From assembly GCF_030378165.1 (NCBI RefSeq), contig NZ_CP119766.1, forward strand, positions 1,674,001-1,738,000: a DNA stretch of 64,000 bases, read 5' to 3'. This DNA comes from Flavobacterium panacagri. Its GTDB lineage: Bacteria; Bacteroidota; Bacteroidia; Flavobacteriales; Flavobacteriaceae. Position numbers and translations under genes: made by a program. Every line of letters begins with the position of its first letter. The stretch's first letter is position 1. Below, piece after piece: positions 46,199-50,731 of the stretch. A model generated the notes under the pieces. That model saw only the letters and a program-made list of their open reading frames with translations. It was not told where the DNA came from and did not search any database.

Positions 46199-46230
46199 AA
46201 AAAGGGCTAAAGGAGAGTTTCTGCTTTAGC
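46199..46230 (-). terminator. Terminator in the metK leader
   Basis: On the minus strand GCTAAAG-N11-CTTTAGC followed by CCTTTTT (plus-strand arms 46206-46212 and 46224-46230). It precedes the metK start by about 55 bases, so read-through must be controlled for metK to be expressed. Confidence 0.75.
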
Positions 46231-46242
46231 ATTTTTTACTAC

Positions 46243-46320
46243 CGAAAGGAATTCTTTCAGCATTCATAATGAAATCATTTCATTACGAAGAGGTTGCAAT
46301 CAGTTCAAATTTTTCCTCTG
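46243..46320 (-). ncRNA. SAM-II-like riboswitch candidate in the metK leader
   Basis: On the minus strand, AGAGG (plus 46315-46319) pairs with CCTCT (46289-46293) around a loop ending CTGATTGCAA. This resembles the P1 stem and conserved loop of SAM-II (TTAACC..TATTGCAA). A small hairpin AATGAAAT/ATTTCATT and then GAATGCTGAAAGAAT follow, in the place of the conserved 3' GCTAAAA segment. CTGAAAG can also pair with CTTTCGG just downstream, giving an alternative fold ahead of the terminator. The match was made by eye. Confidence 0.5.
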
Positions 46321-46329
46321 TTTCGGGTG

Positions 46330-46358: not shown

Positions 46359-46449
46359 ATCAAAGTTCAACTTTTTTTATTTTTTATAGCAGAAATTTAA
46401 CAGAAGTATAGTATTTTGATAGGGTAATGGAAAATAATTTGATTTTTGT

Positions 46450-46480
46450 TTGGTGGTTTGAAAAAAAGTTCTCAAATTTG
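46450..46480 (+). promoter_or_regulatory. Promoter of methionine control module 1
   Basis: TTG (46450-46452), a 20-base spacer and CAAATTTG (46473-46480), one mismatch from TAnnTTTG. The second module at 49883 has the same layout and the same initial C in its -7 box. Confidence 0.6.
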
Positions 46481-46500
46481 CCCTGTAAAACAATAAGAAA

Positions 46501-46557
46501 ATGAATTTAACTGCTAAAAATATGTGTTGTATGATGTCGGAACAATCCGCAGAGTAA
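46501..46557 (+). CDS. Leader peptide A1, Met/Cys-rich (18 aa)
   Basis: A tiny ORF encoding MNLTAKNMCCMMSEQSAE. The run MCCMM places four sulfur amino acid codons plus one close together. Its last codons hold GCAGAG (46549-46554), which is complementary to CTCTGC (46600-46605) in the 5' arm of the next terminator. A ribosome stalled at MCCMM would leave GCAGAG free to block the terminator; a ribosome that reaches the stop would cover it. This is the layout of a ribosome-mediated attenuator. Leader A2 at 49941 aligns with it (MNL, then M, C and S). Confidence 0.7.
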   Translation: MNLTAKNMCCMMSEQSAE

Positions 46558-46596
46558 CTCTATTGTTTAGTAATTAAGTCTACAAAATACAATAAG

Positions 46597-46625
46597 AACC
46601 TCTGCCCAACAGCAGAGGTTTTTTT
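46597..46625 (+). terminator. Attenuator terminator after leader A1
   Basis: AACCTCTGC (46597-46605), loop CCAACA, GCAGAGGTT (46612-46620) and a T-run. Its 5' arm can instead pair with the end of leader A1. Confidence 0.85.
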
Positions 46626-46654
46626 ATGAAGTCAAAAAAATAAAAGAATAAGAA

Positions 46655-46735
46655 ATGAAAAATTCAACAGTAAATAAAATGATGATGTGTTGTAAGATGC
46701 CAATGTGTGTCCAAAGTTGCTGTTGCCAAAAGTGA
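46655..46735 (+). CDS. Leader peptide B1, extremely Met/Cys-rich (26 aa)
   Basis: The product has 6 Met and 6 Cys among 26 residues, with blocks VNKMMMCCKMPM and CVQSCCCQK. CCAAAAG at the end of the ORF (46726-46732, in the codons just before TGA) is the exact complement of CTTTTGG (46772-46778) in the following terminator arm. Ribosome stalling at Met or Cys codons would favour this pairing and read-through. It lies 30 bases after the first attenuator, so two attenuators act in series. Leader B2 at 50117 shares VNKM and CV near its C terminus. Confidence 0.78.
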   Translation: MKNSTVNKMMMCCKMPMCVQSCCCQK

Positions 46736-46766
46736 AAGATCGAATCTTTGTTATAGTTTCAACTAT

Positions 46767-46803
46767 AAGCCCTTTTGGTAAGCCATCCGAAAGGGCTTTT
46801 TTT
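46767..46803 (+). terminator. Attenuator terminator after leader B1
   Basis: AAGCCCTTTTGG (46767-46778), loop TAAGCCAT, CCGAAAGGGCTT (46787-46798) and a T-run. A hairpin TTATAGTT-TC-AACTATAA (46751-46768) sits directly upstream and overlaps its first two bases. Confidence 0.85.
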
Positions 46804-46829
46804 ATTTCAATCTCTTAAAATTTTAAATC

Positions 46830-47006
46830 ATGAATACATTAGATATCAATACAATCGCATTTCAATACTTATTAAGAAATAATAGCTCGGAAGAATCAGC
46901 AGCTGAAACTGTAAAATATGATCCTGCTCAGCAGATAAAAAATCAAAAATCATTACTGTTTCATCTGTACGATCTTGAAGAAGAAGCTGAAGATATTTTA
47001 GCGTAA
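46830..47006 (+). CDS. Small protein with SLLFxxYxxExE motif, module 1 (58 aa)
   Basis: This ORF is too short for most gene finders. The product starts MNTLDINTIAFQYLLRNNSS and ends KNQKSLLFHLYDLEEEAEDI plus LA. The 67-residue ORF at 50338, in the same position after the second pair of attenuators, starts MSTLNYLAEKI and ends with SLLFLMYSKENE. The shared SLLF, Y and acidic positions indicate homology. It is acidic with no signal peptide or helix typical of membranes. It could be a regulatory peptide or partner of the sulfhydrylase encoded next; no known family is recognised. Two 12-base ATCAATTACAAT repeats follow. Confidence 0.65.
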   Translation: MNTLDINTIAFQYLLRNNSSEESAAETVKYDPAQQIKNQKSLLFHLYDLEEEAEDILA

Positions 47007-47074: not shown

Positions 47075-48379
47075 ATGAGTACACAAAAATTTGCAACAAA
47101 CGCATTACACGCAGGACACGATGTTACTAAAAATTCAGGAACAAGAGCAGTGCCAATTTACCAAACATCATCATACGTATTTAATAATGCCGATCATGCA
47201 GCTAACTTATTTGGCCTTGCGGAAGCTGGATTTATCTACACTAGATTAAATAACCCGACAAACGATGTTTTAGAACAGCGTTTAGCAGCGCTGGAAGGTG
47301 GAATCGGAGCTGTAGTTACCGCTTCTGGAGCATCGGCAATTTCTACAACATTACTGACTTTGCTGAAAGCAGGAGATCATATTGTAGCCTCGAACAGTTT
47401 ATATGGCGGGACTTATAATCTTTTAAAAGTTACGTTGCCAAGATTGGGAATTACAACAACATTTGTTGATCCTTCAAAACCAGAAAATTTTACCAAAGCG
47501 GCAAAAGAAAATACAAGAGCTTTCTTTGTGGAATCTCTAGGAAATCCAAAATTAGACGTTTTAGATTTAAAAGGAATTTCGGCAGAAGCCAAAGCATTCA
47601 AAGTGCCATTCATAGTAGATAATACAGTTGCGACACCTTATTTGTTAAACCCTATTAAATATGGTGCCGATATTGTAATTCACTCCTTAACTAAATATAT
47701 CGCTGGAAACGGAACTTCTTTGGGAGGTGTTATCATTGATGCTGGAAATTTTGATTGGGCAAACGGAAAATTCCCTGAATTTACTGAACCATCAGCAGGT
47801 TACCACGGATTAGTATATCACGAAGCTTTAGGGAATGCCGCTTTTATTGCAAAAGCACGAATTGAAGGTCTGCGTGATTTTGGTGCCGCTTTGAGTCCAT
47901 TTAATGCTTTTCAGATTATTCAAGGTTTAGAAACACTTCCAATCCGAATCAAGAAACATAGTGAAAATGCTTTGGCTTTGGCCGAATGGTTAGAGAAACA
48001 AGATGAGGTGGTGTGGGTAAATTATCCAGGTTTAAAATCCAATAAATATTATGATTTAGCCAAAGAATATTTACCAGAAGGACAAAGCGGAATCATTACT
48101 TTCGGATTAAAAGGAGGTTTTGATGCGGCTAAAAAAGTGGTAGACAATACCAAGTTATTCTCTTTACTGGCTAATATTGGCGATACTAAATCGCTGATTA
48201 TTCATCCAGCAAGTACAACGCATCAGCAATTAACAGATGAAGAGCAGATTGAAACGGGAGTTTCAAAAGATTTGGTTCGTCTGTCAGTGGGAATTGAAGA
48301 TATTGAGGATTTAATTGCTGATCTGCAGGCTGTTTTTGAAACCGTTTCGCTTTCACAATACAGCATCAATAAAAATTAG
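47075..48379 (+). CDS. metY: O-acetylhomoserine sulfhydrylase (aminocarboxypropyltransferase)
   Basis: A 434-residue PLP enzyme of the Cys/Met metabolism family. TNALHAGHDVTKNSGTRAVP and YTRLNNPTNDVLEQRLAALE are typical of MetY; the PLP lysine is in HSLTKYIAGNGTSLGG. The insert PEFTEPSAGYHGLVYHEALG distinguishes MetY from shorter MetB/MetZ proteins. It makes homocysteine from O-acetylhomoserine and sulfide. Controlled by the tandem attenuators and small ORF upstream, and closed by a terminator. Confidence 0.94.
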   Translation: MSTQKFATNALHAGHDVTKNSGTRAVPIYQTSSYVFNNADHAANLFGLAEAGFIYTRLNNPTNDVLEQRLAALEGGIGAVVTASGASAISTTLLTLLKAGDHIVASNSLYGGTYNLLKVTLPRLGITTTFVDPSKPENFTKAAKENTRAFFVESLGNPKLDVLDLKGISAEAKAFKVPFIVDNTVATPYLLNPIKYGADIVIHSLTKYIAGNGTSLGGVIIDAGNFDWANGKFPEFTEPSAGYHGLVYHEALGNAAFIAKARIEGLRDFGAALSPFNAFQIIQGLETLPIRIKKHSENALALAEWLEKQDEVVWVNYPGLKSNKYYDLAKEYLPEGQSGIITFGLKGGFDAAKKVVDNTKLFSLLANIGDTKSLIIHPASTTHQQLTDEEQIETGVSKDLVRLSVGIEDIEDLIADLQAVFETVSLSQYSINKN

Positions 48380-48443: not shown

Positions 48444-48466
48444 ATGAAAAGCATCATTATAAAATT

Positions 48467-48585
48467 AAACCATATAAGTGATATAAGTACATTTCAATAT
48501 AGACACACCGCAGTGCATCTAACTCTAAACAGAAGAACTGCTATGTACACGGCAATTAAATGAACTTATATTACTTATATGGTTT
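48467..48585. repeat. 119-bp element with long inverted ends
   Basis: The left end AAACCATATAAGTGATATAA plus GT (48467-48488) is matched by the reverse complement of 48564-48585 with one mismatch, and the similarity continues with few mismatches to about 32 bases per arm. The core (48499-48553) has no ORF. It looks like a miniature inverted-repeat element or a REP-type repeat, just upstream of the homoserine dehydrogenase-like gene. Confidence 0.65.
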
Positions 48586-48600
48586 CAAAAATTAAAAATT

Positions 48601-49940: not shown

Positions 49941-50012
49941 ATGAACTTAAAAGTCAACAAAATGTTTTGTGCCATTTCGGTTATTACCGAGGCTGGGTCG
50001 CCTATTGCTTAA
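49941..50012 (+). CDS. Leader peptide A2 (23 aa)
   Basis: The product begins MNLKVNKMFCAISV and ends TEAGSPIA. It aligns with leader A1 in position, start and the M-C-S spacing, but has only two Met and one Cys after the first residue. GAGGCT in its late codons (49989-49994) is complementary to AGCCTC (50042-50047) in the 5' arm of the next terminator, as in module 1. Codons rare in this genome (GGG, TCG, GCC) cluster at its 3' end, so part of the conservation may be in the RNA. A longer in-frame ORF exists but its start would precede the promoter. Confidence 0.6.
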   Translation: MNLKVNKMFCAISVITEAGSPIA

Positions 50013-50040
50013 AATTGTAAGAAACACAATATATTAGTAA

Positions 50041-50071
50041 AAGCCTCCCAAAGAACATTGGGAGGCTTTTT
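50041..50071 (+). terminator. Attenuator terminator after leader A2
   Basis: AAGCCTCCCAA (50041-50051), loop AGAACA, TTGGGAGGCTT (50058-50068) and T-run. Confidence 0.88.
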
Positions 50072-50116
50072 AATTATAAAAAAATGCAGAATTTAAATAT
50101 ACAATATAAATCACAG

Positions 50117-50188
50117 ATGAATAAATCCTTACAGGTGAACAAGATGTTTGCTGTCGCGCTTATTTGCGTACGCGCATCGGTCTGTTGA
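50117..50188 (+). CDS. Leader peptide B2 (23 aa)
   Basis: The product begins MNKSLQVNKMF and ends with VRASVC. An in-frame ATG at 50084 would add 11 residues; the start at 50117 is preferred because it aligns with the other leaders at VNKM. Many codons are rare here (GTC, GCG, CTT, CGC, TCG), giving a GC-richer patch in AT-rich DNA. AAAAG just after the stop (50193-50197) can pair with CTTTT (50225-50229) of the next terminator, a weaker version of the module 1 layout. Confidence 0.55.
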   Translation: MNKSLQVNKMFAVALICVRASVC

Positions 50189-50220
50189 TACTAAAAGTAT
50201 AAATGAGTTTAAAAAACTTA

Positions 50221-50258
50221 AACCCTTTTGGTATCTAAAAATCCAAAAGGGTTTTTTT
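50221..50258 (+). terminator. Attenuator terminator after leader B2
   Basis: AACCCTTTTGG (50221-50231) and CCAAAAGGGTT (50243-50253) form a perfect 11-bp stem followed by T-run. The arms closely resemble those of the terminator after leader B1. Confidence 0.9.
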
Positions 50259-50337: not shown

Positions 50338-50541
50338 ATGAGCACATTGAACTACTTAGCAGAAAAAATTTCAAATTTGAAAAACAGAAGGACAAGAAAA
50401 AACAATCCGCCACCGCCAACAAATGAATTGGCACATCCAAGATTCGGAATGAACGAAACGGATAAAAATGCTGAAAAAAAAGCACCCAACTCTTTATTGT
50501 TTTTGATGTATTCAAAAGAAAATGAAACGCTTTTCATCTAA
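50338..50541 (+). CDS. Small protein with SLLFxxYxxExE motif, module 2 (67 aa)
   Basis: The product begins MSTLNYLAEKISNLKNRRTR, has a NNPPPPTNE linker and ends with KAPNSLLFLMYSKENETLFI. The end matches the small protein at 46830 (KSLLFHLYDLEEE), and both begin M-x-T-L. This one is basic in its N-terminal half. It follows the second pair of attenuators and precedes the S-box riboswitch and metX, so its expression should respond to the leaders but not to the riboswitch. No known family is recognised. Confidence 0.65.
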   Translation: MSTLNYLAEKISNLKNRRTRKNNPPPPTNELAHPRFGMNETDKNAEKKAPNSLLFLMYSKENETLFI

Positions 50542-50731
50542 ACAGATAAGTGACATAAACTAGGTTAAAACCTGCTTAATTTTACTGGGCATTTATGTTC
50601 GGTAAATTTTTGCGTATAATAGTTTTTGCTAAAGTAAGTCTCAGAAATTTAACAAACACTTTTAGATAAAATTTGTTTGTTTAAGAAAATAGTAGTTAAT
50701 TTGCACCGTTAAGTTCAAACACGTATTGAAA

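Follow-up and report, generated by a model that had tools for sequence, protein, structure and literature searches.

Ribosome-mediated transcription attenuation is classically illustrated by the leader peptides of the enterobacterial trp, his, thr, leu and phe operons. The metY leaders described here have in common with these attenuators a short ORF rich in codons for the end product, an intrinsic terminator and a putative stall-dependent antiterminator. They differ in the codons concerned (Met and Cys), in comprising two full units in series, in occurring in Bacteroidota and in preceding genes of the methionine and cysteine pathways; their pairing strand moreover lies in the last leader codons, with no conserved separate protector hairpin established.

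Leader ORFs with runs of Cys codons ahead of sulfur genes have also been described in Actinobacteria (Seliverstov 2005); in the accessible part of that work these leaders have no obvious terminators and the Cys run sits near the stop codon, whereas the metY leaders possess terminators and carry their likely control codons upstream. The accessible portions of a later article give leaders as known only in Proteobacteria, Actinobacteria and, newly, Firmicutes (Naville 2010, PMC2965389). Strong clues for leader-peptide attenuation 5' of amino-acid biosynthesis operons have since been presented for Flavobacterium psychrophilum (Guerin 2021, PMC9723704), a member of the same genus as our locus, the word 'methionine' being absent from the main text of that article in its accessible form. 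In Bacteroides thetaiotaomicron, leader-like short ORFs in long 5' UTRs were likened to attenuation leaders (PMC7366714), the example being the hypothetical gene BT_4401, with no Met/Cys case seen in the accessible text. Two leader peptides likewise act on one gene in the ErmBL/ErmBL2 system, which the accessible text presents as drug-induced translational attenuation (PMC8274638), whereas the metY case would respond to amino acid supply through two terminators in series.

Methionine genes are also controlled by SAM-I and SAM-II riboswitches and by Met T-boxes, in which the RNA senses SAM or tRNA directly; SAM-I and SAM-II both occur in the window (the whole 64,000-nucleotide stretch of the Flavobacterium panacagri genome analysed here), and the metY leaders show no match of this kind. 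The literature that we searched contained no report of a tandem Met/Cys leader-peptide attenuator. A preliminary description of this DNA knew of no two-stage Met/Cys attenuator in Bacteroidota; none was indeed found, but attenuation as such had already been suspected in Flavobacterium, as the accessible text of PMC9723704 indicates. We report here what are very probably two ribosome-mediated (leader-peptide) transcription attenuators in series before metY. If this is true, ribosome-mediated attenuation gains methionine, cysteine, well-supported cases in Bacteroidota and a two-checkpoint series architecture.

Architecture of the metY leader region

The features of the locus are collected in Table 1. 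The preliminary description had reported two short ORFs (18 and 26 codons), each followed by a strong terminator, and all four elements were confirmed. Its statements that the first ORF contains MCCMM, that the second holds 6 Met (including the start) and 6 Cys, and that the last codons of each leader are complementary to the 5' arm of the terminator behind it (GCAGAG with CTCTGC; CCAAAAG with CTTTTGG) proved exact. An intrinsic terminator is thus present between leader ORF and gene for both leaders. When both strands of the window were searched for terminators closely preceded by an ORF of 12-45 codons in which Met+Cys number at least 5 and make up at least 20%, leaders 1 and 2 were the only two sites, and the same rule returned 0 sites in each of 8 dinucleotide-shuffled windows.

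Table 1. Features of the metY leader region and of the second array (positions in the window).
Feature	Position	Strand	Sequence or remark
SAM-II riboswitch of metK (divergent gene)	46216-46324	-	Rfam match
Possible promoter P1	46449-46480	+	TTTG (46449-46452), 20-nt spacer, CAAATTTG (46473-46480); by eye
Leader ORF 1	46501-46557	+	MNLTAKNMCCMMSEQSAE
Leader ORF 1 control codons (putative)			Met8, Cys9, Cys10, Met11, Met12
Antiterminator strand, leader 1 (putative)	46549-46554	+	GCAGAG, last codons of ORF 1; complement of CTCTGC 46600-46605
Inner antiterminator helix, leader 1 (predicted, fold of 46548-46605)	46560-46566 with 46589-46596	+	CTATTGT with ACAATAAG
Terminator 1	46594-46623	+	AAGAACCTCTGC[CCAACA]GCAGAGGTTTTT
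Leader ORF 2	46655-46735	+	MKNSTVNKMMMCCKMPMCVQSCCCQK
Antiterminator strand, leader 2 (putative)	46726-46732	+	CCAAAAG, last codons of ORF 2; complement of CTTTTGG 46772-46778
Two small hairpins in the leader-2 antiterminator loop	46735-46749, 46751-46768	+	
Terminator 2	46767-46798	+	AAGCCCTTTTGG[TAAGCCAT]CCGAAAGGGCTT
58-aa ORF	46830-47006	+	between terminator 2 and metY; first gene past the attenuators
metY, O-acetylhomoserine/O-acetylserine sulfhydrylase	47075-48379	+	TIGR01326, 650 bits vs cut-off 495
Second array, leader A	49941-50012	+	MNLKVNKMFCAISVITEAGSPIA; terminator 50040-50069
Second array, leader B	50117-50188	+	MNKSLQVNKMFAVALICVRASVC; terminator 50220-50254
67-aa orphan protein gene	50338-50541	+	behind the second array

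Leader 2 begins 31 nt past terminator 1, and no promoter motif was seen between the two leaders of the window. The possible promoter P1 was called promoter-like by its resemblance to the promoter consensus; many two-leader loci show a comparable arrangement ahead of leader 1, and a strict promoter pattern matches there in 3/45 loci, the window itself being unmatched.

The enzyme gene controlled by the two attenuators would be metY, a proposal that shares the high confidence we place in the attenuator reading as a whole. The 58-aa ORF had been left out of the preliminary description. It has no family match in Pfam or NCBIfam, its N-terminus is highly variable and the ORF was not seen in some relatives; judged by eye, its C-terminal motif is like that of the 67-aa ORF at 50338. 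The metX gene lies 2.5 kb downstream of metY and carries a SAM-I riboswitch in the window. A long inverted repeat (AAACCATATAAGTGATATAAGT ... ACTTATATTACTTATATGGTTT, 48450-48598) separates metY from a homoserine dehydrogenase gene.

Both leaders are predicted to switch fold as the terminator is completed. Leader 1 cut before the 3' arm of the terminator (46548-46605) adopts the antiterminator fold (-12.1 kcal/mol), and the complete segment (46548-46623) the terminator fold (-19.8 kcal/mol, z -4.4); the corresponding predictions for leader 2 are an antiterminator fold for a transcript cut at 46780 (-13.8 kcal/mol) and a terminator fold for the complete RNA (-23.6 kcal/mol, z -3.9). Since the full-length RNA folds as a terminator, antitermination would hinge on timing. 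A small AGAG-TAA-CTCT hairpin, a possible protector that would keep termination on in an untranslated leader, is also predicted in leader 1 of the window.

Ribosome geometry was considered with a typical footprint size, using those distinct leaders (44 for leader 1 and 79 for leader 2) that contain the strand motif. For leader 1, a distance of at least 13 nt (mostly 14-36) separates 250 of the 254 Met/Cys codons from the pairing strand downstream, which would place the strand just beyond the reach of a ribosome stalled there and leave it free; this supports the stalled-ribosome geometry put forward in the preliminary description. In leader 2, 637/830 Met/Cys codons keep this minimum distance from the strand (mostly 20-50 nt), and the remaining 193, at 2, 5 and 8 nt, form the terminal Cys run. 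The set of candidate sensing codons in leader 2 has to be narrowed accordingly: the terminal CCC (Cys22-24) was rejected as a sensor, as a stall there would cover the strand (2-8 nt away) and the run is less conserved. Cys22-24 are thus probably not the sensor and, for the same two reasons, Met9-Cys18 are the likely control codons.

From these elements we infer where transcription starts, that the leaders are translated, that ribosomes stall on them, that antitermination takes place in the cell and that Met/Cys supply is the signal. RNA polymerase would start near 46490 and transcribe leader ORF 1 with a ribosome close behind. With ample charged Met- and Cys-tRNA, the ribosome would reach the stop codon and cover GCAGAG...CTATTGT, leaving CTCTGC to pair with its own 3' arm, and transcription would terminate near 46625. 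With scarce charged Met- or Cys-tRNA, it would stall on the Met/Cys codons 14-36 nt upstream, so that GCAGAG would be free to pair with CTCTGC and the polymerase would go on. Leader 2 would repeat the same test with CCAAAAG and CTTTTGG, and only transcripts clearing both checkpoints would reach the 58-aa ORF and metY; because there are two checkpoints, a steep response and low background are expected. The elements themselves are real, conserved and tandem, and their putative function would use a known type of mechanism in a setting that is new for it. The mechanism assumes that transcription is tightly coupled to translation in Bacteroidota, a group in which ribosomes mostly disregard Shine-Dalgarno sequences, and bears on the question of whether this coupling is tight enough for ribosome position to govern termination.

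Constraints on codons and alternative pairing

The comparison in relatives proposed in the preliminary description showed conservation of the core Met/Cys codons as well as of the pairing, with some compensatory change. Counted on the metY tree for core Cys columns 24, 25 and 32 of leader 2 only, 12 changes were silent third-position changes and 2 were non-silent. Met column 28 of the same leader is invariant (81/81) and the other Met columns vary; the terminal Cys columns 36-38 underwent 15, 14 and 4 base changes, only part of them silent. In leader 1, all 30 sequences agree at two Met columns (23 and 27) and at Cys column 25, the Cys column with 3 silent changes, and the other Met/Cys columns are variable (Met 25/30, Cys 15/30). 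Codons of the putatively regulated amino acids are therefore under selection in a short leader, with some columns varying. Elsewhere the leaders drift: base changes by codon position are 53/52/59 in leader 1 and 80/147/157 in leader 2, a distribution unlike that of the nearby 67-aa gene (230/245/683), which indicates that particular codons are kept rather than a protein.

An alternative explanation, that the ORFs encode Cys/Met-rich metal-binding or thiol-sensing micropeptides and that the terminators are ordinary gene ends, draws on the likeness of CCxxM..C..CCC in ORF 2 to a metal-binding peptide. The candidate was rejected, as the leaders show no protein-like evolution: beyond the codon-position counts, the leaders of L019 and L020 are almost purely Met, and in L087 and L088 a frame change removes the Cys tail of leader 2 while the RNA is retained. 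We give this explanation almost no credence.

The final leader codons appear to be conserved as RNA, not as peptide. The GCA GAG that closes leader 1 shows zero changes across 30 sequences, TCCGCAGAG is translated S-A-E in most species and P-Q in five loci (L007, L011, L013, L014 and L020), and CCAAAAG persists under the altered reading frame of L087 and L088.

In 33 leader-1 sequences, hand-chosen for diversity, the strand and the 5' arm of the terminator form 197/198 standard pairs. Compensatory change is confined to one of the six positions: at position 5, A-U occurs 26 times, G-U once, G-C twice and C-G four times, and where the 5' arm of the terminator has changed (G-C and C-G) the 3' arm carries the matching change. 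For leader 2, examined in 46 of 75 unique segments, CCAAAAG pairs with 46772-46778 in 98.1% of cells, and none of the 7 pairs of this helix is altered on both sides. The two small hairpins are paired in 94.8% and 94.2% of cells, respectively, with both-side change in 5 pairs, giving 95.7% of cells paired and 5 such pairs for the antiterminator and the two hairpins together. Covariation of this structure reaches 0.072, versus a mean of 0.049 in shuffled alignments (0/500) and at most 0.042 when the alignment is slid.

The 121 unique leaders have a pairing score of 16.0, versus 11.0 with shuffled tails and 11.6 with the arms of other loci. In a crude ungapped pairing test only 44 of the 121 exceed all 40 of their own shuffles, and the best ungapped pairing is just 3-5 bp in leader 2 of L007, L008, L014, L019, L020, L110, L119 and L165, as well as in leaders of L010, L015, L017, L018, L021 and L118. 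These data suggest that a mutually exclusive antiterminator is kept by some compensatory change, though few pairs vary.

Relatives, target genes and competing explanations

Leader 2 with its terminator was found upstream of metY in all 80 relatives considered (77 titled Flavobacterium), a set made up of the best 80 among 450 metY loci confirmed in named genomes. Leader 1 was found within 1300 nt of metY in 29/80 and was missed by the rule in 51/80; in G004, G006 and G008 it lies about 3.5 kb upstream of metY, and in some genomes a gene that in L202 has a TonB-receptor plug domain separates leader 1 from leader 2 of metY. Same-genus loci from further genomes of the order carried at least one leader in 14/14 cases, partly in the same strains as the 80 and with L337 barely meeting the rule. 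In other genera of Flavobacteriaceae, leaders were found in only 8 of 60 regions, taken from 168 other-genus genomes with a metY match, and were tandem in 5 of the 8; L127, which meets the rule but is not Met/Cys-rich, is excluded from this count. A second genome set, partly overlapping the 60 regions, gave leaders in 0/8 loci of other-genus Flavobacteriaceae, and in other families a Met-rich short ORF precedes a terminator in 3/9 loci (L021, L347 and L348).

Altogether, 108 of 161 loci (L001-L021 and L031-L170) contain leader-terminator pairs, 153 in number; the first pair of L015 resembles a chance match in the metK antisense region and is retained in this count and in that of the 121 leaders. 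Matches to the leader-1 model are present in 115/121 genomes, a number that differs from the true leader count since it includes presumed terminators: further matches in the genome of the window, all with E 0.005 or worse, are taken as plain terminators. L173, a model match with E 0.07, has no Met/Cys-rich leader by the rule.

The two-stage series arrangement of the preliminary description applies to the window and to many relatives without being universal, as leader 1 was found in 29/80 relatives and a promoter-like motif separates the leaders in 15/45 two-leader loci. The series layout without an internal promoter appears to be one of several. Short gaps of 30-38 nt between leaders recur in L010, L020, L113, L115 and L122, so series control looks old.

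Other targets were identified in 20 regions chosen from model matches and by searches directed at particular genes. Leaders, tandem or single, stand before metX in L204, L205, L206, L212 and L218 (the gene being named by BLAST comparison with part of metX from the window), before cysH in 7/30 loci, before metH (N-terminal homocysteine methyltransferase part) in 1/30 loci and before a cystathionine-synthase-like gene in 2/30 loci; both strands were scanned for the latter, and 28 of its 30 loci are 37-41% identical to the query and may represent another gene. Leaders also occur before genes for homoserine dehydrogenase (L180), serine acetyltransferase (L217) and OsmC (L220), with a weak one before nirB in L221. 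Among 30 loci with the best leader-1 model matches (L174-L203), leader 1 precedes a gene with a common N-terminus in 11, namely L202 and 10 others; in L202, the one of the 11 that was tested, this gene has a TonB-receptor plug domain, and import of a sulfur compound or a cofactor across the outer membrane is its candidate function.

Cys accounts for 37/70 control codons before cysH (11 leaders) versus 1/25 before metH and the cystathionine-synthase-like gene (4 leaders), with a Fisher p of 8e-6 obtained on few leaders that had been selected by Met+Cys content and on codons that are non-independent within a leader. By this comparison, the Cys content of a leader appears to follow the pathway of its target. 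In L206, L212 and L218, the leaders are on metX and a SAM-I riboswitch closely precedes metH; the window has the opposite arrangement, with SAM-I on metX. The two sensor classes, leaders and SAM-I, appear to swap between metX and metH; if true, leader peptides and SAM riboswitches are exchangeable on these genes. Flavo-1 RNA lies near SAM-I riboswitches in two met regions (L206:67-152 and L180:375-453).

These distributions bear on two further explanations. An RNA-bound small molecule, either SAM or another sulfur metabolite, could be the sensor, the ORFs being incidental; sulfur genes are often under riboswitch control, and SAM riboswitches flank the locus (SAM-II on metK and SAM-I on metX). 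A riboswitch or T-box in the metY leader was nevertheless rejected, as no Rfam family or covariance model matches within 46450-46830, even with E up to 1. The conserved structure comprises only terminator, antiterminator and two small hairpins, the core Cys codons are kept with silent changes, Cys content tracks the target gene and, in three relatives, SAM-I and leaders are exchanged on metX/metH, all of which makes this explanation highly improbable. That the attenuator reads general translation speed, under stress or drug, rather than Met/Cys supply gains some plausibility from the fact that the antiterminator strand would become free whatever made the ribosome stall in the leader and from antibiotic leaders that exploit stalling, such as the two-leader ErmB case in the accessible text of PMC8274638. 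We nonetheless regard it as unlikely, in view of the retention of the core Cys and some Met codons and of a Cys content that fits cysH versus metH and the cystathionine-synthase-like gene.

Returning to attenuation by Met/Cys supply, we lean on balance towards a broader reading in which Flavobacterium and near relatives would run much of their sulfur amino acid synthesis and uptake through modular, often doubled leader checkpoints. The codons would be tuned to each gene, leaders in series would form a multiplicative gate on charged Met- and Cys-tRNA, and modules would interchange with SAM riboswitches. The genes concerned would be metY and, variously, metX, metH, the cystathionine-synthase-like gene, cysH and the genes for serine acetyltransferase, the TonB receptor and small orphan proteins.

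A second tandem array and the 67-aa gene

The second array of the window precedes the 67-aa gene. The rule found leader A in 48/81 loci and leader B in 80/81, the latter being also matched by the leader-2 covariance model (37 bits). In the window's clade, the leaders of this array contain fewer Met/Cys codons, and leader B, with few such codons, resembles a conserved peptide (MNKMF.VA.IC.V.C). For these two reasons the signal of the second array may differ, leader B being possibly a nascent-chain sensor rather than a plain codon sensor. A Phe attenuator was rejected for this array, the Phe_leader match at 49946-50075 being weak (E 0.04, 30 bits versus a gathering threshold of 55).

The 67-aa gene was found in 80/81 loci, and the C-terminus of its product (SLLFLMYSKENETLFI) is almost invariant. 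At E <= 0.01 the protein has 173 homologues; of the 120 that were listed, those with a name come from a metagenome or from Flavobacterium, and no Pfam domain was seen in any of them. In the window, a terminator-like hairpin lies behind the gene at about 50583-50610, and a hairpin at this place was recovered in 28/81 loci with a tailored pattern and in 1/80 with the generic terminator rule.
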